Positions 9,609-19,639 of a stretch of 64,000 bases of DNA are shown here, one piece after another. The stretch's first letter is position 1. Each line of letters starts with the position of its first letter. Both the position numbers and the translations under genes were made by a program. The DNA is from Planotetraspora kaengkrachanensis (GTDB lineage: Bacteria > Actinomycetota > Actinomycetes > Streptosporangiales > Streptosporangiaceae). The DNA is taken from assembly GCF_016862895.1 (NCBI RefSeq), contig NZ_BONV01000035.1:62001-126000 (forward strand), in the 5' to 3' direction. A model generated the notes under the pieces. That model was not told the DNA's origin, made no database searches, and saw only the letters and a list, made by a program, of their open reading frames with translations.

Positions 9609-10640
9609 ATGGAGTACCGCACCTTGGGAGGCACCGGCACAGTGGTGTCCTCGCTGTGCCTGGGCACGATGACTTTCGGCAATGAGAGCAGCGAGGAGGT
9701 GTCGCATGCTCAGCTCGACCGGTTCGTCGAGCGCGGGGGCAACTTCATCGACACCGCCAATGTGTACTCCCGCGGATTGTCCGAGGAGATCATTGGTCGC
9801 TGGCTGGCGGCCCGGCCGGGCGTACGGGATCAGCTCGTCATCGCGACGAAGGGCCGTTTTCCGATGGGGGGCGGGCCGAATGACGCGGGCCTGACCCGCA
9901 CCAACCTGTCTCGGGCGTTGGAAGCGAGTCTGCGGCGGCTCGGGGTCGAGGCCGTCGACCTCTACCAGGCCCACGCCTGGGATCCCCTGACCCCGATCGA
10001 GGAGACGCTCGGCTTCTTCGACGACGCGGTGCGTGCCGGCAAGATCCGCTATGCGGGCGTCAGCAACTTCCTCGGCTGGCAGTTGCAGAAGGCGGCGCTG
10101 CTGACGCAGTTCCGTGGGCTCGCGCCGATCGTGACGCTGCAGCCCCAGTACAACCTGTTGGTGCGTGACATCGAGTTCGAGCTGGTCGACGTGTGCCGTA
10201 ACGAGAACATCGGGATCCTGCCGTGGTCGCCGTTGGCCGGTGGCTGGTTGACCGGGAAGTACGCACGTGACCATGTGCCGACCGGGGCGACTCGGCTCGG
10301 CGAGGACCCTCAGCGTGGCATGGAGGCCTATGCCCCGCGCAACGCGCAGGAGCGCACCTGGCAGGTCATCGACACGGTGCGCCAGGTCGCCGAGGCGCGG
10401 GGCGTGTCCATGTCACAGGTGGCGCTCGCCTGGGTGGCCGACCGGCCTGCGGTCACGTCGGTGATCCTCGGCGCACGCACGCTCGAACAACTCGACGACA
10501 ACCTCGGCGCCGCCGGGTTGCACCTGTCCGAGAAGGAGACGGACCTGCTCGCCGAGGCCAGTTCGCCGATCGCGTCGGTGTATCCGTACGGCGCACCAGG
10601 CATCCAGCAGCGCTCGCGTGCCCTGAACCCGCTCAATTGA
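9609..10640 (+). CDS. Aldo/keto reductase
   Basis: This 343-residue NAD(P)H-dependent AKR shows the family landmarks: LGGTGTVVSSLCLGTMTFG at the N-terminus, FIDTANVYSRGLSEEIIG with the catalytic Asp and Tyr, VIATKGRF with the Lys, the VDLYQAHAWDP active-site His, and the C-terminal cofactor loop VTSVILGARTLEQLDDNL. It belongs to the YajO/Tas-like oxidoreductases that reduce aldehydes and ketones; the substrate is not deducible. ATG 9609 is favoured by GAGAGG at 9596-9601 with 7-nt spacing, over ATG 9582. It converges with a histidine kinase gene. Confidence 0.9.
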   Translation: MEYRTLGGTGTVVSSLCLGTMTFGNESSEEVSHAQLDRFVERGGNFIDTANVYSRGLSEEIIGRWLAARPGVRDQLVIATKGRFPMGGGPNDAGLTRTNLSRALEASLRRLGVEAVDLYQAHAWDPLTPIEETLGFFDDAVRAGKIRYAGVSNFLGWQLQKAALLTQFRGLAPIVTLQPQYNLLVRDIEFELVDVCRNENIGILPWSPLAGGWLTGKYARDHVPTGATRLGEDPQRGMEAYAPRNAQERTWQVIDTVRQVAEARGVSMSQVALAWVADRPAVTSVILGARTLEQLDDNLGAAGLHLSEKETDLLAEASSPIASVYPYGAPGIQQRSRALNPLN

Positions 10641-10652
10641 TCAAGGGTTCAC

Positions 10653-10666
10653 GCGGTGGTCACCGC
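10653..10666. terminator. Short palindrome between convergent genes
   Basis: GCGGTG at 10653-10658 and CACCGC at 10661-10666 form a perfect inverted repeat in the 27-bp gap between the convergent AKR and histidine kinase genes. It may act as a bidirectional terminator, but the 2-nt centre makes a long hairpin doubtful. Confidence 0.3.
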
Positions 10667-10667
10667 A

Positions 10668-12077
10668 CTAGCCGGGGGGAGCGGGATCGGTAGGGCCGCT
10701 CGCCGATGGCGCACACGGAAGGCGAAGGACGAAGTGTGCGCCGCGGGAGCTGTCCTCGATCCGCAGGGTCCCCCCTGCGGCCTCGGCGATCTGGCGCGCG
10801 ATCGCCAGGCCCAGTCCCGTTCCTCCGGCGCCGCGGGATCGGTCGCTGTCGAGCCGGGTGAACCGCTGGAACACCAGCTCGCGGTTGTCTGGATCGATGC
10901 CGGGCCCGTCGTCGACGACCTCCAGCACCGCGGCGCCGTACGGCGTGCGTTGATCGCCGCACTGGCCTCCCGGCTCGTGCCGCACCGTGACGGCGACCAT
11001 GGTTTCGGCGTGCCTTTCGGCATTGTCGAGAAGGTTGGTGACCACGCGAGCCAGCTGTGACCGGTCGCCGATCACCACGGCGCCGGGTCCGAGTGAGTAC
11101 TCGATCCTTTTCGCCCGATCGCGGCGGATCCGGCACTCGGCGACGAGTTCTGCCAGGTCGATCAGGTCGCGTGCGCCCGGCACCCCGGCGTCCAGGCGTT
11201 CGAGGGTCAGCAGATCCTGCACGATCGCCTGCAGCCGGTCCACGCTGACGAGAACGCTGCGCACCACCGTGGCCACACTGGTCTCCTCGGGTGCGTGCAG
11301 GGCGTCCTCCAACTCGGCTCGCATGGCGGCCACCGGGCTGCGCAGGTCGTGGGAGGCGTTGGAGAGGAACTGACGCAGGTGTCGCAGGGTGGTGTCCAGC
11401 CGGCTCAGGGTGCGGTTGACACTTTCGGCCATGTCGTGAATCTCGTCATCGGCGGCCGGCACCGGCACCCGGCGGTGCGGAGCGGCCGCGTTGATCTCCT
11501 CGAGTTCGGCTCGGATGGCCTTCACCGGCCTGAGGGATGCCCGGGCGTTGCGCCGGCCGAGGTAGGTGATGGCCGCGGCGAGTGCCAGCGCGCTCCCTCC
11601 CACCGCCCCGGCGAGCCGCGGGTCGACCCACGGAGGGATCGAGGGGGAGGAACTGTAGACGAGCCATCTCTCGCCGGCGCGGTGGGCCCATTGCGCGACG
11701 ACGATGTCGCAATCGCCAGGTGGGAAGACTCCGCCGCACACGACGGAGGTGGCGCTGTTCTTTCCGTCGGGAGTGAATGTCGCCATGGCCGGCTTGCCCT
11801 GCAGCTTCGAGGTCGAAGCGACCACCCGACCCTGTGGGTCGACGACCTGGATGTTGCGTCCCGGACGTTCTGCAAGGGGGTAGCCCAACCGGCCCCGCTC
11901 CATTTCCACGGCCACGCGGCCACCGGCCGAGGTGATCTCCTCAGTGGCGTCCGCGACGGCGAAACGGTTGATGGCGATCATGAGGACTATGGCGAGCAGG
12001 GAGCAGAGCAGGCCCGCCACTACGCCGGCGAACAGCGTGATGCGGGTCGTAATGGGCAATTGGTATCGCGTGCTCAT
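10668..12077 (-). CDS. Sensor histidine kinase (paralogue of the divergent kinase)
   Basis: The 469-residue membrane sensor kinase has an N-terminal transmembrane helix (about 12-35), an extracytoplasmic domain of about 110 residues with a Cys pair in VVCGGVFPPGDC, a second transmembrane helix, a HAMP-like linker, HisKA with the phospho-acceptor His in FLSNASHDLRSP, and HATPase_c with NLLDNAERHA, VDDGPGI and GTGLGL. ATG 12077 is used because residues encoded further upstream are not kinase-like. No response regulator lies next to it. It is back-to-back with a clear paralogue starting at 12230, and the 152-bp gap must hold both promoters. Confidence 0.9.
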   Translation of the reverse strand: MSTRYQLPITTRITLFAGVVAGLLCSLLAIVLMIAINRFAVADATEEITSAGGRVAVEMERGRLGYPLAERPGRNIQVVDPQGRVVASTSKLQGKPAMATFTPDGKNSATSVVCGGVFPPGDCDIVVAQWAHRAGERWLVYSSSPSIPPWVDPRLAGAVGGSALALAAAITYLGRRNARASLRPVKAIRAELEEINAAAPHRRVPVPAADDEIHDMAESVNRTLSRLDTTLRHLRQFLSNASHDLRSPVAAMRAELEDALHAPEETSVATVVRSVLVSVDRLQAIVQDLLTLERLDAGVPGARDLIDLAELVAECRIRRDRAKRIEYSLGPGAVVIGDRSQLARVVTNLLDNAERHAETMVAVTVRHEPGGQCGDQRTPYGAAVLEVVDDGPGIDPDNRELVFQRFTRLDSDRSRGAGGTGLGLAIARQIAEAAGGTLRIEDSSRGAHFVLRLPCAPSASGPTDPAPPG

Positions 12078-12229
12078 CCAAAACGGCCCCTCTGGCCAGT
12101 GGAACACATAGCCCGGGGAGTGCCGGCAAAGGGCCCCGCCTACGGTTAAGGCCTGGTCAAGGCCACCCCCTGCGCAGAGGGGACATACGCCACGTGCTGG
12201 ACTGGTCACGGGAAAGGGGGCCCAGGTCA

Positions 12230-13615
12230 GTGAGCATTCGGCGGTATACGGAGAGAGCTCGCCTGATGCTGTTTCTCGGCGTAGCGGTGGCATTGCTCAG
12301 CACGCTCATGTCCGGGATGGTCATGTTCATCGTCCATCGCCTGGCGACTGAGTCGCGCACGGCCACCGTGACCGGGATGGCGACCGAGGTCGCTTCTCTC
12401 ATCCCCCGGGGAGAATTACGAAATCCGATCTCCGATCAGGTGATTCCCTACGTCCAGGTGCTCGATTCACAGCGGAGGGTCATCGCCTCCACCGTGGACT
12501 TGCGCGGACGGCCGCCCATCGCGAGCTTCCTGCCCGCCAACACCGAGAGCGAGCGGACCGAGGTCATCTGCGGCAGGGCCATCCCGGCAGGGGAGTGCGC
12601 CCTGGTCGTCGCCGTCATAGCCACCGACAGCGGCAACACGTGGACCGTCTACGGCGCCGCACCGGCAGTCCCCTTCTACGTCGATCCCCTCCTGGCGTTG
12701 CTACTGGTCGCCGGCACGGTGATCATCGTCGGCCTCATCGTCTTCGCCAGCTATCGGATCATCGTCGGATACATCGAGCCGGTGAGACTCATCCGGGCCG
12801 AGCTGGGTCACCTGCGACCCACACGGTTGAGCGAACGGGTCCCGGTGCCGTCACGCTCCTACCGGGAGGCCCATGATCTGGCGACGACGGTGAACAGGAC
12901 GCTGGATCAGCTGCAGGCCATGATGGAGCGGGAGCGTCAGTTCACCTTCGACGTCTCTCATGACCTGCGCAACCCGATCACCGCGATGCGAACAGAGATC
13001 GAGGATGTGCTGCTCGCCCCGGACGAGGTTGACGTGGTCAAGCTGGGTTCGACCCTGCTCGCCGATCTGGACAGGTTGCAGGCGATCGTGTCCGACCTTC
13101 TCATGCTGGCGAAGCTGGACGCCGGGGCGCCCACGACCTGCCAGTGGGTCGACCTGGCGGAGCTCGCCACCGCCGAATGCGCTCGCCGGTCCGGCAAACA
13201 GGTCATTTGTGAGGCCGCCCCGGGAGCGGTGGTGAAAGGCGATCGGGGACGGCTCGCGCGGCTGGTCAACAATCTGGTCGCCAACGCCGAACGGCATGCG
13301 AGTTCCAAGGTCACCGTCCGGGTGTCCCGTCAGGGCGGCGATACGGGGTCAGACGCGGGCACGGCGGTGCTCGAGGTCATCGATGACGGCGAGGGGATAG
13401 CCCCTGGCGATCGTGAGACGGTCTTCGAGCGTTTCGTACGGTTGGAGGCCGGGAGGAGGAAGGATTCCGGCGGCACCGGCCTCGGCCTTCCGATCGCCAG
13501 ACAGATCGCGGAAAGTCACAGCGGCACGCTGACGATCGAAGACAGCGACAGGGGCGCTCACTTCGTCCTGCGGATCCCCCTCCGATCGGCGAACGTCGAC
13601 ACCGAACCGGCCTGA
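12230..13615 (+). CDS. Sensor histidine kinase (divergent paralogue)
   Basis: The 461-residue protein has the same architecture as its divergent neighbour: transmembrane helix, extracytoplasmic sensor with a matching Cys pair (VICGRAIPAGEC) and a shared WxVYxxxPxxPxxVDP end, second transmembrane helix, HAMP, HisKA (FDVSHDLRNPITAMR) and HATPase_c (NLVANAERHA, IDDGEGI, GTGLGL). GTG 12230 is the preferred start, with purine-rich GGAAAGGGGG upstream at 12211-12220; GTG 12194 and ATG 12266 are alternatives. No response regulator is adjacent, so both kinases are orphans here. The pair looks like an old duplication, with similar but clearly diverged sensors. Confidence 0.88.
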   Translation: MSIRRYTERARLMLFLGVAVALLSTLMSGMVMFIVHRLATESRTATVTGMATEVASLIPRGELRNPISDQVIPYVQVLDSQRRVIASTVDLRGRPPIASFLPANTESERTEVICGRAIPAGECALVVAVIATDSGNTWTVYGAAPAVPFYVDPLLALLLVAGTVIIVGLIVFASYRIIVGYIEPVRLIRAELGHLRPTRLSERVPVPSRSYREAHDLATTVNRTLDQLQAMMERERQFTFDVSHDLRNPITAMRTEIEDVLLAPDEVDVVKLGSTLLADLDRLQAIVSDLLMLAKLDAGAPTTCQWVDLAELATAECARRSGKQVICEAAPGAVVKGDRGRLARLVNNLVANAERHASSKVTVRVSRQGGDTGSDAGTAVLEVIDDGEGIAPGDRETVFERFVRLEAGRRKDSGGTGLGLPIARQIAESHSGTLTIEDSDRGAHFVLRIPLRSANVDTEPA

Positions 13616-15496: not shown

Positions 15497-16900
15497 TCAG
15501 AAGTCGAACTGCTCCAAATGAATGCGGCGATCAGGCACACCGGCGCGACGTAGGGCATGCCGGGCCGCGGTCGTCATCCCGGCGGGACCGCACAGGTACA
15601 CGTCGTGCATGGCCAGGCTGGGAATGAGGGCCCTCAGTGACCGTCCGGTCAGCGGTACGGCACGGCCGCGCCGTGATCCGGGTGTCTCGTCGACGGTGTA
15701 AAGGACCTTGGCGCCCCGCGCTGCCGCGATGGCGTCCAGCTCGTTGCGCAGGACCAGGTCCTCGTCCCGGCGAGCCAGGTAGACCAGCGTCACCTGGCCC
15801 GGCAAGGTCTCGAAAAGCGCGCGCAGCGGGCTGATGCCCACGCCACCGCCCACCAGCAGCACCTGGGGACGCCGCCGGCGAGCCGCGGTCAGCGCGCCGT
15901 ACGGACCCTCGGCCCACACCCGGACACCGGGCCGCAGACCGGCGAGCGCGCGGCTGTGGTGACCGACCGCCTTTACGGTGATCCGCAGGAAGCGGGGGTT
16001 GGGCGGAGCGGATAACGAGTAGGGATTCGCGGTCCACCACAAGCCCCGAGTCAGGAATCGCCAGCGGAAGAACTGCCCGGGCTCGGCGCCTAGCTCGCGC
16101 AGGTGCTCGCCGATCAGGTAGGCCGACACCACGCCGGGCGACTCCCTGCGGATCTCGGCCACCGTGAGACGGTGACGCAGACCCCGGCGCACGGGCGTGA
16201 GGAAGCGATACCAGATCAGCAGGATGGTGGCAGACACGTAAAGAGCCAGCCACAGGGCTGTGGCCAGTTGGTCGCCGAGAAAGTCCGGCCCGAGCAACTG
16301 GTGCCCGTATGCCAGAAAGATCCCGGCATAGGTGACGAAATGCAGGTAATGCCAGAGCTCGTAGGGCAGCCGGCGCCGCACCTTCCGGACCGAGACGATC
16401 CCGACGCCGACGAGGAGCGCCAGACCGACCGTCGCCTCCGGCAACTCGGGCCCGTCCACGATCAGTCCCACGGAGTTGCCCAGCAGGCCCGCTCCGGAGC
16501 CGTCGACGCGGGCAGCGGTCGCGAAAACCATGTGCGCGAGCGAGAGCACGATCGTGTGCCGGGCGATCACCGCGTGCCAGCGGGCCAGGCGGTCAGAGCC
16601 GATCCCCCGGTCCAGCAGCGGCGTCCGCGACACCAGCGTCACGAGAATCGCGCAGGCATATCCGGCGAGCAGGCCGGTGAGCCGGCCCGCCCAGGCGAGC
16701 CAGCCGTCCAGCCCGTTCACCGAGCCCATCCCCGACCAGCATCCGGAGGTCGCGGCGATGGCGCCTCCGGCGATCAGGATGAGCACGACCAGCGGATGCG
16801 CGTGCGGCGCCGCTGCCCGTTCAGGCATCCTGCGCCGCCTGGGCGCGGTGGGAACGGCTTTGCCGTCGTGAACGGGTCGCACGGCCGCGGCGTTCCTCAC
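15497..16900 (-). CDS. Ferric reductase-like transmembrane flavoprotein
   Basis: The 467-residue protein has about six membrane helices with paired histidines (RWHAVIARH, LAHMVF, ELWHYLHFVTYAG, YGHQL) that would hold two b-type haems. A ferredoxin-NADP reductase-like C-terminal half follows, with NPYSLSAPP (flavin), VGGGVGISPLRALFE (pyridine nucleotide) and YLCGPAGM. It should pass electrons from NAD(P)H across the membrane through FAD and haem to an extracytoplasmic acceptor (metal or quinone). Its start overlaps the DUF305 stop by 4 bases (16897-16900), so the two are co-translated. FMN-binding partner proteins often found with this family are not seen here. Confidence 0.88.
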   Translation of the reverse strand: MRNAAAVRPVHDGKAVPTAPRRRRMPERAAAPHAHPLVVLILIAGGAIAATSGCWSGMGSVNGLDGWLAWAGRLTGLLAGYACAILVTLVSRTPLLDRGIGSDRLARWHAVIARHTIVLSLAHMVFATAARVDGSGAGLLGNSVGLIVDGPELPEATVGLALLVGVGIVSVRKVRRRLPYELWHYLHFVTYAGIFLAYGHQLLGPDFLGDQLATALWLALYVSATILLIWYRFLTPVRRGLRHRLTVAEIRRESPGVVSAYLIGEHLRELGAEPGQFFRWRFLTRGLWWTANPYSLSAPPNPRFLRITVKAVGHHSRALAGLRPGVRVWAEGPYGALTAARRRRPQVLLVGGGVGISPLRALFETLPGQVTLVYLARRDEDLVLRNELDAIAAARGAKVLYTVDETPGSRRGRAVPLTGRSLRALIPSLAMHDVYLCGPAGMTTAARHALRRAGVPDRRIHLEQFDF

Positions 16901-17514
16901 TGCCCGACGCCTTCGAGCCCGGTGAGCTCACCCGCGTGAGCCTCGGCCATCGTCGCGGCGAACGCCCTGGTGTCCGCGTCGGCCCCCGCGTCCTGCTCTC
17001 CCCGCGCCACCAGCACGGACTGCCTGAGGAAGTCGCGCGCGTGCTGGGCGAAGAGCCGGTCGAACGCCGCGCCGTCGGCCGCGTTGATCACTTCGAGATC
17101 GGCCGCCGTCACCATGCCCGGCATGTTGTGTCCCTCGTGCACGTTCACGTACGGCGTGCCTGACCGGTCGAGCAGGCGGTGCAGGCGCCCCAGCTCGGCG
17201 CGATGCGCGGCGCCGAGGGTCTTGGACAACGACACGATCTCCGGGTTGGAGGTCTTGTCCAGGGCCAGATCGAAGAGCCGCACGGCCTGCTCGGTCATCG
17301 GGATCATCAGTTGCAACCATGCGACGTCGGTCGCGTTGAAGGAGTCCGACGAGGTGACCGCTGGTGCCGGCGCGCCGCCCGGAATCGGCTGTACGGCCTG
17401 CGCCTGCGCTGCCAGATGGCTCGAATGGGCGGCCGGCCCGGCGGCGACGCACCGCGTGACGAGCAACACCGTGACCGCTGCGAGGATCGGCGCACCGATC
17501 GTGCCCGCTCGCAT
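16897..17514 (-). CDS. Secreted DUF305-like protein lacking the usual His pairs
   Basis: The 205-residue protein has a signal peptide (ILAAVTVLLVTRCVAAG), a short Ala/Pro linker and an all-helical DUF305-type domain. DUF305 proteins normally carry MIPHH and a second HH motif. Here the first reads MIPMTEQAVRLF and the corresponding second region is QHARDFLRQSVLVARGE, so both canonical His-His motifs are lost, although other His and Met residues remain (HEGHNMPGM). Metal binding may therefore differ. It is sandwiched by 1-nt and 4-nt junctions between a 60-residue membrane protein and the ferric reductase-like gene, which suggests a shared redox or metal role outside the membrane. Confidence 0.75.
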   Translation of the reverse strand: MRAGTIGAPILAAVTVLLVTRCVAAGPAAHSSHLAAQAQAVQPIPGGAPAPAVTSSDSFNATDVAWLQLMIPMTEQAVRLFDLALDKTSNPEIVSLSKTLGAAHRAELGRLHRLLDRSGTPYVNVHEGHNMPGMVTAADLEVINAADGAAFDRLFAQHARDFLRQSVLVARGEQDAGADADTRAFAATMAEAHAGELTGLEGVGQ

Positions 17515-17515
17515 G

Positions 17516-17698
17516 TCAGCTCCTCTCGCCAGGGGCGCTCGGATCTCGGAAGAAGCGAGGCCCAGATGCGGTGGCCGTGCCGGTCACGGACACCAAGCCG
17601 GCGCCCAGCAATGCGGCGAGCGCGCCGACGGCCATGACACGGCCGGCTCGACGTGCTTTGCCACCGGATGCGACGGCGCGCGGGACAGTCTCACTCAT
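17516..17698 (-). CDS. 60-residue single-pass membrane or exported protein
   Basis: This short gene (MSETVPRAVASGGKARRAGR at the start) encodes a basic N-terminal segment, one hydrophobic helix (VMAVGALAALLGAGLVSVTG) and a short tail with FFRDPSAP. It ends one base before the DUF305 start codon, so it is the first gene of a three-gene operon. It may be a signal-peptide-only small exported protein or a single-pass partner of the redox complex. I do not recognise a family. Confidence 0.6.
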   Translation of the reverse strand: MSETVPRAVASGGKARRAGRVMAVGALAALLGAGLVSVTGTATASGPRFFRDPSAPGERS

Positions 17699-18325: not shown

Positions 18326-19489
18326 TCAGCTGTTCCAGCCGGGGGTGGTGCCGCACTTGGCGTCCGCGTTGATGCAGATCTTCACCAGCGCGCCGAGCTT
18401 CTCCGGCTTCCATGCGTTCATGAAGTCCCCGTGCATCGAGGACGCCATGCCCGACGACAGCTTCAGGCCGTTACCGCCGAGGGAGTTGTAGCCGACCATG
18501 AGCGAGATGTTGGGGACCGCGACCGGGTACTTGCCGGAGCACTTGCCGTTGGTGGCCGGCCCCATGTGCGACTTGTGGTCGGGCGAGTCGATGTGCTTGC
18601 CGTCCCAGCAGTCCTCGAACGTCACCTGACGAATCAGATTGCCGCCCTTCGCGCAGACCGGCCAGTTGCCGTCGGCGCTGCGTCCGGTCTCCGCGCTGCC
18701 GGCGCACCAGAACTGGCCGGAGGCGCCCTTCGGCGTCGCCACCTGTCGCTTGGCGTCACCGGTCACCATGACCAGACCCGGGGGGAACGGCACGACCGTC
18801 GACGGGTCCTTGAGCCGGGAGCCGTAGTACACGCGGAAGTTCTTCATTGGGACCGGCTTGCCGTCACGCAGCAGTTGCGGAACCCAGTAGGCGCTGTGGT
18901 CCCCGGGCGCGTTGCAGGTCGTGGGGCTCGCGAGCAGCTTGGCCGGCGTGGTGGTGGCATTCACTTTCGGACCGAAGAAAGTGTGCATGTGGGAGGCGCC
19001 AGGCAGACCGGGCAGCACGATCGGGTCGTCCGCCGCCTGGGAGGACACCGAGCAGTCGGTGTGGAACTCGGGGACTCGCACGATTCCCGCGGGGACCTTC
19101 TTGGGTGCGACCTTGCGGTAGACGTCCAGGGCCTGCTTCCATGCGGCCTGGTTCACCGGCACCCAGCCGCCGCGAACGGTGCTGGCCGCCGCGCTGCGCG
19201 ACGGTGTCGGCGAGGACGGTGCCGACGGCTTGGCCGGGGTGGACGGCTTGGCCGACGTCGACGGCTTGGCCGACGTGGACGGCTTGGCAGGCGTGGACGG
19301 CGTGGACATTGCGGCCCCCGCGGCCGAGACGGTATCCGTCTCGGTTGCCGACTCGAGACCGCTGGACTGGGACGAACCGGAGGCGCCGGGGGGCGCCGCC
19401 TGGCTGTTGCAACCGGTGGTCAGGGCCACGGTGAGCAGCAGGACGGCAGCCACAGGTGGAAGTTTACTTACGCTGTTTTGCCAATTCAT
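18326..19489 (-). CDS. DUF1996 secreted lipoprotein
   Basis: This 387-residue protein has a lipoprotein signal (VAAVLLLTVALTTGC, lipobox LTTGC), a 100-residue Ser/Thr/Ala/Pro linker with repeated AKPST units, and a DUF1996 domain of about 240 residues. Conserved pieces are HMHTFFG, HSAYWVPQL, FWCAGS, FEDCWDGKHIDSPDHKSHM and SMHGDFMNAW. Such domains occur in fungal and actinobacterial secreted proteins, probably on the cell surface; the activity is unknown, though the many conserved His, Asp and Trp suggest carbohydrate or metal interaction. ATG 19489 is preferred; GTG 19501 is an alternative. A strong terminator follows. Confidence 0.82.
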   Translation of the reverse strand: MNWQNSVSKLPPVAAVLLLTVALTTGCNSQAAPPGASGSSQSSGLESATETDTVSAAGAAMSTPSTPAKPSTSAKPSTSAKPSTPAKPSAPSSPTPSRSAAASTVRGGWVPVNQAAWKQALDVYRKVAPKKVPAGIVRVPEFHTDCSVSSQAADDPIVLPGLPGASHMHTFFGPKVNATTTPAKLLASPTTCNAPGDHSAYWVPQLLRDGKPVPMKNFRVYYGSRLKDPSTVVPFPPGLVMVTGDAKRQVATPKGASGQFWCAGSAETGRSADGNWPVCAKGGNLIRQVTFEDCWDGKHIDSPDHKSHMGPATNGKCSGKYPVAVPNISLMVGYNSLGGNGLKLSSGMASSMHGDFMNAWKPEKLGALVKICINADAKCGTTPGWNS

Positions 19490-19639
19490 CGAGGAGCGCA
19501 CCCTTTCTCTCGGGGAGGAACAATACAGCCCTGTGACCCTCTCTTTGGAAGAGAATGGTTAGGTCTACTTCGACTCGCCCGCATTGCGTCCGACCTGCCG
19601 CGTCAGTCCGATGTACTTTTCATTAAATTCTCAAAAAAC

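Follow-up and report, generated by a model that had tools for sequence, protein, structure and literature searches.

A clade of DUF305 proteins without His-His pairs is often encoded beside DUF1996 proteins and, in part of the Streptosporangiaceae, a transmembrane reductase

What does a DUF305-type protein that lacks both canonical His-His pairs do beside a transmembrane reductase, and which genes are its partners? A locus in a 64,000-nt window of Planotetraspora kaengkrachanensis DNA (NZ_BONV01000035.1, 62,001-126,000; coordinates below count within this window) raises the question. Its minus strand carries, in transcription order, a DUF1996 gene (18326..19501), a 60-codon frame (17516..17698), a gene for a 205-aa DUF305-type protein, secreted or membrane-anchored (16897..17514), hereafter DUF305v, and a ferric-reductase-like gene for a 467-aa transmembrane reductase of the FRD superfamily (15497..16900). 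The initial annotation had joined the last three into an operon, and the frames and junctions read from the sequence just as it described them, with TGA-C-ATG (1 nt) before DUF305v and GTGA (-4 nt) before the reductase; a Shine-Dalgarno-like GAGAGGAG lies directly 5' of the DUF305v start. Of that operon we retain the DUF305v and reductase frames and the tight junctions, set aside the 60-aa frame as one of its genes, and add the DUF1996 partner upstream, which had been left out. We regard it as virtually certain that these genes are associated as a module and that the loss of the His-His pairs (HH) is common to a whole clade of DUF305v proteins.

DUF305v passes the Pfam DUF305 model (PF03713) with 69.3 bits against a cut-off of 27, and also passes DUF4142 (PF13628; 37.4 bits, cut-off 27) with a weaker match that overlaps the DUF305 one. 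Its AlphaFold2 model (mean predicted local distance difference test, pLDDT, 84) has the DUF305 fold, which together with the Pfam score bears out its description as a DUF305-type helical protein. The best structural matches are the DUF305 proteins of Deinococcus (3bt5; Z 20.4, 1.6 Å over 147 residues) and Streptomyces coelicolor (2qf9; Z 19.6), both of which were also found by profile. As had been claimed, both canonical pairs are absent, the sites that are canonically MIPHH and MIxHH reading MIPMTEQ and FAQHARDF. The NCBIfam model for the copper metallochaperone CopM (NF049983) gives 22.3 bits, so far below its cut-off of 90 that we take DUF305v to be a DUF305 protein by sequence and fold, yet not a CopM-type metallochaperone; across the HH-less clade this model matches 31 of 66 members at all (E up to 0.001). 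The closest named relatives of DUF305v are in Planotetraspora mira, P. phitsanulokensis and P. silvatica (95-96% identity). Helix 1 is nearly invariant across the clade at non-metal residues (D63 and W66 in 65/66, L69 in 66/66). A lipobox was found by pattern in 65 of 80 DUF305v proteins, while 13 of the 80, including those of Planotetraspora, have Arg preceding the Cys and may therefore be anchored to the membrane differently.

We then asked how many relatives likewise lack HH. Named genomes were scanned with the peptide pattern GH[DN][MI]PGM[VP], in which part of the linker motif discussed below is already specified. Of the 180 relatives obtained, the best 80 were kept, and none of these carries a helical HH motif; they come from Streptosporangiaceae, Streptomyces, Micromonosporaceae and other groups. 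In a tree of 122 DUF305 proteins, built by a quick method with the motif columns kept in, all 81 HH-less rows fall on one side of a single branch (Shimodaira-Hasegawa-like approximate likelihood ratio test, SH-aLRT, 100), for which a single loss, kept since, is the simplest reading. The helical HH sites thus appear to have been lost, most simply once. Canonical actinobacterial DUF305 proteins differ from DUF305v in keeping at least one HH in 58/58 rows, and HH was present in all 40 that were read of 49 canonical-like rows (39 by pattern, 1 by eye); variant and canonical rows were assigned by profiles built from both groups, a possible circularity, and the tree separates them at 100. The window genome itself has nine DUF305 matches, four of them above 150 bits, and the three of these four that were aligned all have HH. 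In a phylum-wide sample the HH-less clade was found in only 3/396 genomes (E up to 1e-40), one of them the window genome, which makes its distribution patchy. The initial annotation had pointed out that homologues keeping MIPHH in the same reductase context would make this copy a degenerate exception. None with MIPHH was seen in 40 reductase loci (read mostly to +/-5 kb); HH-less DUF305v adjoins the reductase in 13 of these, 7 of which also hold a third DUF305 type with HN and HQ in place of HH. A degenerate single copy is rejected, the HH-less state being common to one clade.

The DUF305v gene has two recurrent partners. Across the 80 named loci, a same-strand DUF1996 gene lies within 2.5 kb upstream in 64 and a reductase gene downstream in 15, with both in 9 and neither in 10 (some partnerless loci, L161 and L197, stop near a contig edge); DUF1996 is the more frequent partner, and the reductase has been added in only some members of the family. 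In 200 genomes of the order, searched separately, there were 57 variant rows, of which 36 stand beside DUF1996, 22 beside the reductase, 12 beside both and 11 beside neither; two of the 57 are partial C-terminal matches, without which 34 of 55 rows stand beside DUF1996. Canonical-like DUF305 rows from the same search showed neither neighbor within 2.5 kb (0/49 for each; rows are those among the matches listed, canonical-like down to E 4e-30 and DUF1996 above 140 bits). The count remained 0 when the test was repeated with other rows (68 reductase, 52 DUF1996), and the 11 partnerless variants remained partnerless with the added rows. Two canonical-like rows (G174 and G176) have a distant relative of the reductase 7 to 10 kb away. 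Seen from the partners, a variant DUF305 adjoins 22 of the 24 reductase rows compared (23 top matches plus a split copy in G208, added by hand) and 36 of 98 strong DUF1996 rows. DUF305v is therefore mostly found with DUF1996, and DUF1996 often without DUF305v. In the window genome, no DUF305v was found beside DUF1996 at the two further strong DUF1996 loci and two weak DUF305 matches examined. A second DUF305v copy in Planotetraspora (L140-L142) has neither DUF1996 nor reductase, and its scanned neighbors include CHAP-domain and metallo-beta-lactamase-like genes. In the open-licence literature searched, DUF305 occurs with a ferric reductase in algal work only and with DUF1996 in a database paper only; the passages of PMC4520260 that were searched do not treat DUF305 as such.

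The reductase passes the Pfam model Ferric_reduct (57.3 bits, cut-off 28) and scores over the cut-off for NAD_binding_1. Two haem-type His pairs, H109/H123 and H187/H200 (His-X13/X12-His), are present in 39 to 41 of 41 rows, and a plain hydropathy scan marked four segments. With its C-terminal FAD/NAD(P) region, the protein is a haem/flavin transmembrane reductase as first described. The FRD superfamily to which it belongs includes ferric reductases, and the closest solved chain by sequence is 8qt6 (E 3e-11), which we take to be of the SpNOX type. The NADPH motif GVGISP (at 353) is shared with this group; the NOX FAD motif H[PSA]F[TS][LIMV] has no match in the reductase, which has the flavin motif PYSL (at 293) in its place (motif definitions from PMC5676040). 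The tie of its gene to DUF305v is a further difference from SpNOX. That pairing, as the initial annotation supposed, is conserved: besides the 22 of 24 rows above, the 13 DUF305v-linked reductases in a tree of 40 (the copies of the window, Planotetraspora sp., Streptosporangium, Herbidospora, Acrocarpospora and others) occupy one side of a branch with support 100/100. The tree was made without L126 (a split reductase) and the linked copies L148 and L149; linked copies of Sinosporangium and Microtetraspora were not among its rows. The single branch suggests one recruitment followed by joint inheritance. On the DUF305 tree the reductase-linked rows require three state changes, which means that there were also losses or independent gains. 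Outward electron flow through this reductase is plausible from its family. In Sphaerisporangium perillae (L139, 6588-7624) the reductase linked to DUF305v runs over two frames, because the gene is broken or because of a sequencing error.

Although the helical HH pairs are gone, DUF305v has a candidate metal site in its linker, H126-E-G-H129-N-M131-P-G-M134. Within the clade alignment H126, H129 and M134 are present in 66/66 and M131 in 62/66. Since the 80-locus scan pattern contained part of this motif, we base the linker claim on 52 variants found independently of that pattern, all of which have HxxHx[MIL]PG and none a helical HH (the lone HH pattern match in this set falls in an N-terminal linker, and some of the sequences are from the same species). 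Among these G128 varies, with EQH, TTH and VQH occurring. The same pattern is found in 25 of 58 canonical DUF305 rows. As judged from these alignments, the conserved metal ligands seem to have shifted from the helices to the linker.

The comparison with CopM of Synechocystis gives this shift a possible meaning. CopM, a DUF305 copper metallochaperone that functions in copper resistance (PMC4335983), has the same four-helix fold (PDB 5fej, 5ffa and 5ffc-5ffe; Z 16.6 to 17.6), and a signal peptide and extracytoplasmic location as in DUF305v. Two copper sites have been proposed for CopM from work on peptides: the helical MxxHH is the strong one, and the linker MHxxH binds Cu(II) more weakly through two His and two Met. 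Crystals soaked with Cu(II) likewise revealed the linker site (PMC11836926). Both linkers hold an HxxH with nearby Met, GMHQGHGMM in CopM and VHEGHNMPGM in DUF305v. The two proteins differ in that DUF305v has no HH in either half, and in that its neighbors are DUF1996 and the reductase rather than the copRS genes of the CopM operon (PMC4335983). A shift of ligands to the linker fits exchange of a metal ion better than storage. Of the two roles that the initial annotation had offered, the retention of CopM's linker copper motif leads us to favor an altered metal carrier over a structural partner, and we lean towards DUF305v being a handler of an exchangeable metal ion.

We then considered the more frequent partner. 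The DUF1996 protein of the window passes PF09362 (147.8 bits, cut-off 27), and reads by eye as a lipoprotein, with LTTGC followed by a Ser/Pro/Thr-rich linker and then the DUF1996 domain. Its conserved residues are H171, H173, H309, H312 and H357 together with eight Cys, and HxH, DxSxYW and HxD are invariant columns of the DUF1996 alignment. The same three signatures occur in the fungal DUF1996 proteins Vlp1-3 of Beauveria (formula in PMC4738358); those are vacuolar, whereas the bacterial proteins have signal peptides, often have F5/8 domains and adjoin DUF305v. The structural model is of good quality (pLDDT 87.8); no solved relative was found by sequence up to E 10, Foldseek returned no structural match, and VIA-align gave two rows only (Z 2.6 and 2.5). 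A PHM-type copper monooxygenase was considered and rejected, as the PHM rows in Foldseek (E 1.7 to 4.7, TM 0.11 to 0.13) are noise; the lack of matches carries no weight of its own. Nor was the N-terminal histidine brace of AA10 lytic polysaccharide monooxygenases (LPMOs) found: the lipobox implies that the mature N-terminus would be Cys, and there is no LPMO model among the Pfam matches up to E 1. In P. phitsanulokensis the DUF1996 gene (L137, 3935-5080) has a frame that is not continuous relative to the window copy from the linker on and scores lower than in congeners; it may be disrupted.

Glycan-related genes occur around DUF1996. F5/8 type C domains are present in some homologues (L046, L165), and the DUF1996-DUF305v pair has an F5/8-GH16 gene on its upstream side in L158, L213, L266, L271, L274, L277 and L279, an arrangement that may be a beta-glucan cluster. 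The DUF1996 position is taken by an F5/8-GH16 gene in L264 and by an F5/8-PF11790 glycosidase in L144 (S. subroseum) and L091, and a PF11790 gene precedes DUF1996 in L139 (Sphaerisporangium perillae). These loci were picked through profile matches, so they attest the existence of the arrangement and not its frequency. In fungal proteomics, DUF1996 has been suspected of a link to polysaccharide degradation (PMC7679414).

A parallel was seen with a known secreted copper enzyme. Seven Herbidospora loci have an AA10 LPMO gene, then another DUF305 gene, downstream of the DUF305v-reductase pair (LPMO called by PF03067 for L150, gene 10406-11821, and by similarity for the remaining loci). An AA10 LPMO gene has a DUF305 gene as the next tested gene downstream, within about half a kb, in 14 of 17 loci read (L150, L283-L289, L291, L293-L297 and L302 included). 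Three of the 17 entered the set because the adjacency was already known, one belongs to the window genome and the others were picked by frame length; with the first three set aside, the DUF305 gene is present in 11 of 14. It is missing next downstream of the AA10 gene in the window genome. The likeness to the DUF1996-DUF305v pair lies in a DUF305-type gene adjoining a secreted-enzyme gene in the same bacterial family. The LPMO-linked DUF305 proteins differ in keeping more of the first-site His motif (HN, HS or HH; the second site reads [HQE]QDDA), and form a clade separate from DUF305v, set apart by a branch with SH-aLRT 99. No paper on DUF305 with a lytic polysaccharide monooxygenase was found in the open-licence literature. 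The pairing of a DUF305 gene, within one bacterial family, with a secreted enzyme known to use copper makes a metal-supply role of DUF305v at DUF1996 more likely.

The 60-aa frame is very probably a stranded signal-peptide relic, to judge by its composition and its homologues. GC content by codon position is flat in this frame (0.70/0.70/0.73) compared with 0.73/0.51/0.89 in the DUF305v gene, and its first 45 residues are similar to signal peptides of F5/8-type secreted proteins, both DUF1996 and glycosidase, encoded at related loci (E 4e-7, 51% over 45 aa), the final 15 residues falling outside the match. Near-full-length matches among the loci searched occur only in two Planotetraspora species and Sphaerisporangium perillae. 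In P. silvatica the match is restricted to the last 16 residues, and in the same-genus genome G001 none was found in the two loci examined. Against the Sphaerisporangium perillae copy, nonsynonymous (dN) and synonymous (dS) divergence are 0.16 and 0.19 for the 60-aa frame and 0.06 and 0.10 for DUF305v; within the genus such comparisons of the frame are too close to discriminate. Its conservation at 95-97% in two congeners counts against a relic. The flat codon-position GC, the likeness to signal peptides and its large or complete absence from two same-genus genomes nevertheless speak against the 60-residue membrane protein of the initial annotation, and with dN/dS they make a role for it as a subunit unlikely.

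The gene association, clade structure, motif switch, fold, and intact haem and nucleotide motifs are direct observations, and the best single account, which we hold at slightly less than even confidence, is a surface module with metal handling and electron supply whose enzymatic step is left open. Its components would be DUF305v, a DUF1996 protein that is secreted or held by a lipid anchor and, in some Streptosporangiaceae, a transmembrane NAD(P)H reductase dedicated to them. On the outer side of the membrane, DUF305v would pass an exchangeable metal, most likely copper, to DUF1996 or hold it nearby; the reductase would send electrons outward to the metal center of DUF1996/DUF305v, and DUF1996 would act on glycans, perhaps oxidatively. 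That the reductase feeds electrons to this metal is a step that we propose tentatively; that DUF1996 is an oxidative glycan-active enzyme is doubtful. Several observations weigh against this account. No variant lies within 2.5 kb of 62 of the 98 strong DUF1996 rows, and the 11 of 57 variants with neither partner, among them the window genome's second copy on contig 17, imply that DUF305v can act alone or with unlinked genes. Electrons from the reductase are not generally needed, because 65 of the 80 named loci have no reductase downstream. As there is no fold match, the catalytic nature of DUF1996 is a guess, and with a lipobox pattern in only 6 of its 64 partner copies, most DUF1996 partners would be shed or otherwise held. 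Finally, DUF1996 deletion mutants of Beauveria were not sensitive to Cu2+ (PMC4738358).

Other readings share parts of this evidence. The locus might serve metal uptake or detoxification, in which the reductase would reduce extracellular Cu(II) or Fe(III), DUF305v would bind the reduced ion and DUF1996 would be a surface metal-binding or stress protein. The presence of ferric reductases in the FRD superfamily fits such a role, as do the part of CopM in copper resistance (PMC4335983) and the sensitivity of Beauveria DUF1996 mutants to several metal ions and to oxidation (PMC4738358); the carbohydrate-type F5/8 domains of DUF1996 homologues and the glycosidase neighbors argue the other way, and we consider this reading fairly unlikely. 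DUF305v might instead have ceased to bind metal and now anchor DUF1996, assist its folding or regulate it (and do the same for the F5/8 glycosidases that can take its place), the reductase then making superoxide or serving another nearby acceptor. This would agree with the disappearance of both helical HH sites from the relatives examined, with the near-invariant D63, W66 and L69 of helix 1, which suggest a binding surface, and with the F5/8 glycosidases that stand in for DUF1996 in L144, L091 and L264. The linker, however, shows the reverse of what loss of metal predicts, since its CopM-type His pair and Met are conserved in the variant and variable in canonical DUF305, and a protein-only role is in our estimate unlikely.

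That the 60-aa frame is a membrane subunit which, with DUF305v and the reductase, forms one electron-export complex would explain the tight junctions and the frame's conservation in two congeners; given the evidence that the frame is a relic and its near-full-length matches in three species only among the loci searched, such a complex is very improbable. The chance that the genes are adjacent by accident, or that DUF305v is a degenerate copy, is close to negligible in view of the same order across many genera, the single HH-less clade and the absence of these neighbors within 2.5 kb of all 49 canonical-like rows.

Elsewhere in the window, two sensor-kinase-like genes lie back to back and divergent (10668-12077 on the minus strand and 12194-13615 on the plus strand); the product of the latter resembles heavy-metal sensor kinases with a score below the cut-off.

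To our knowledge, no biochemical activity has been established for the DUF1996 proteins of fungi and bacteria, and one is known for few DUF305 proteins. In its widest form, which we consider unlikely, the surface module would make DUF1996 a secreted, metal-dependent and probably copper-dependent oxidative glycan-active family with DUF305 proteins as dedicated copper suppliers, the HH-less clade for DUF1996 and the other clade for AA10 LPMOs; some Streptosporangiaceae would have wired DUF1996 to a private NAD(P)H reductase, a bacterial counterpart of the external electron donors of LPMOs. Because it is conserved, the module identifies proteins to be tested jointly, and offers a natural series of CopM copper sites, with the helical ones lost and the linker site kept, along with a candidate reductant.

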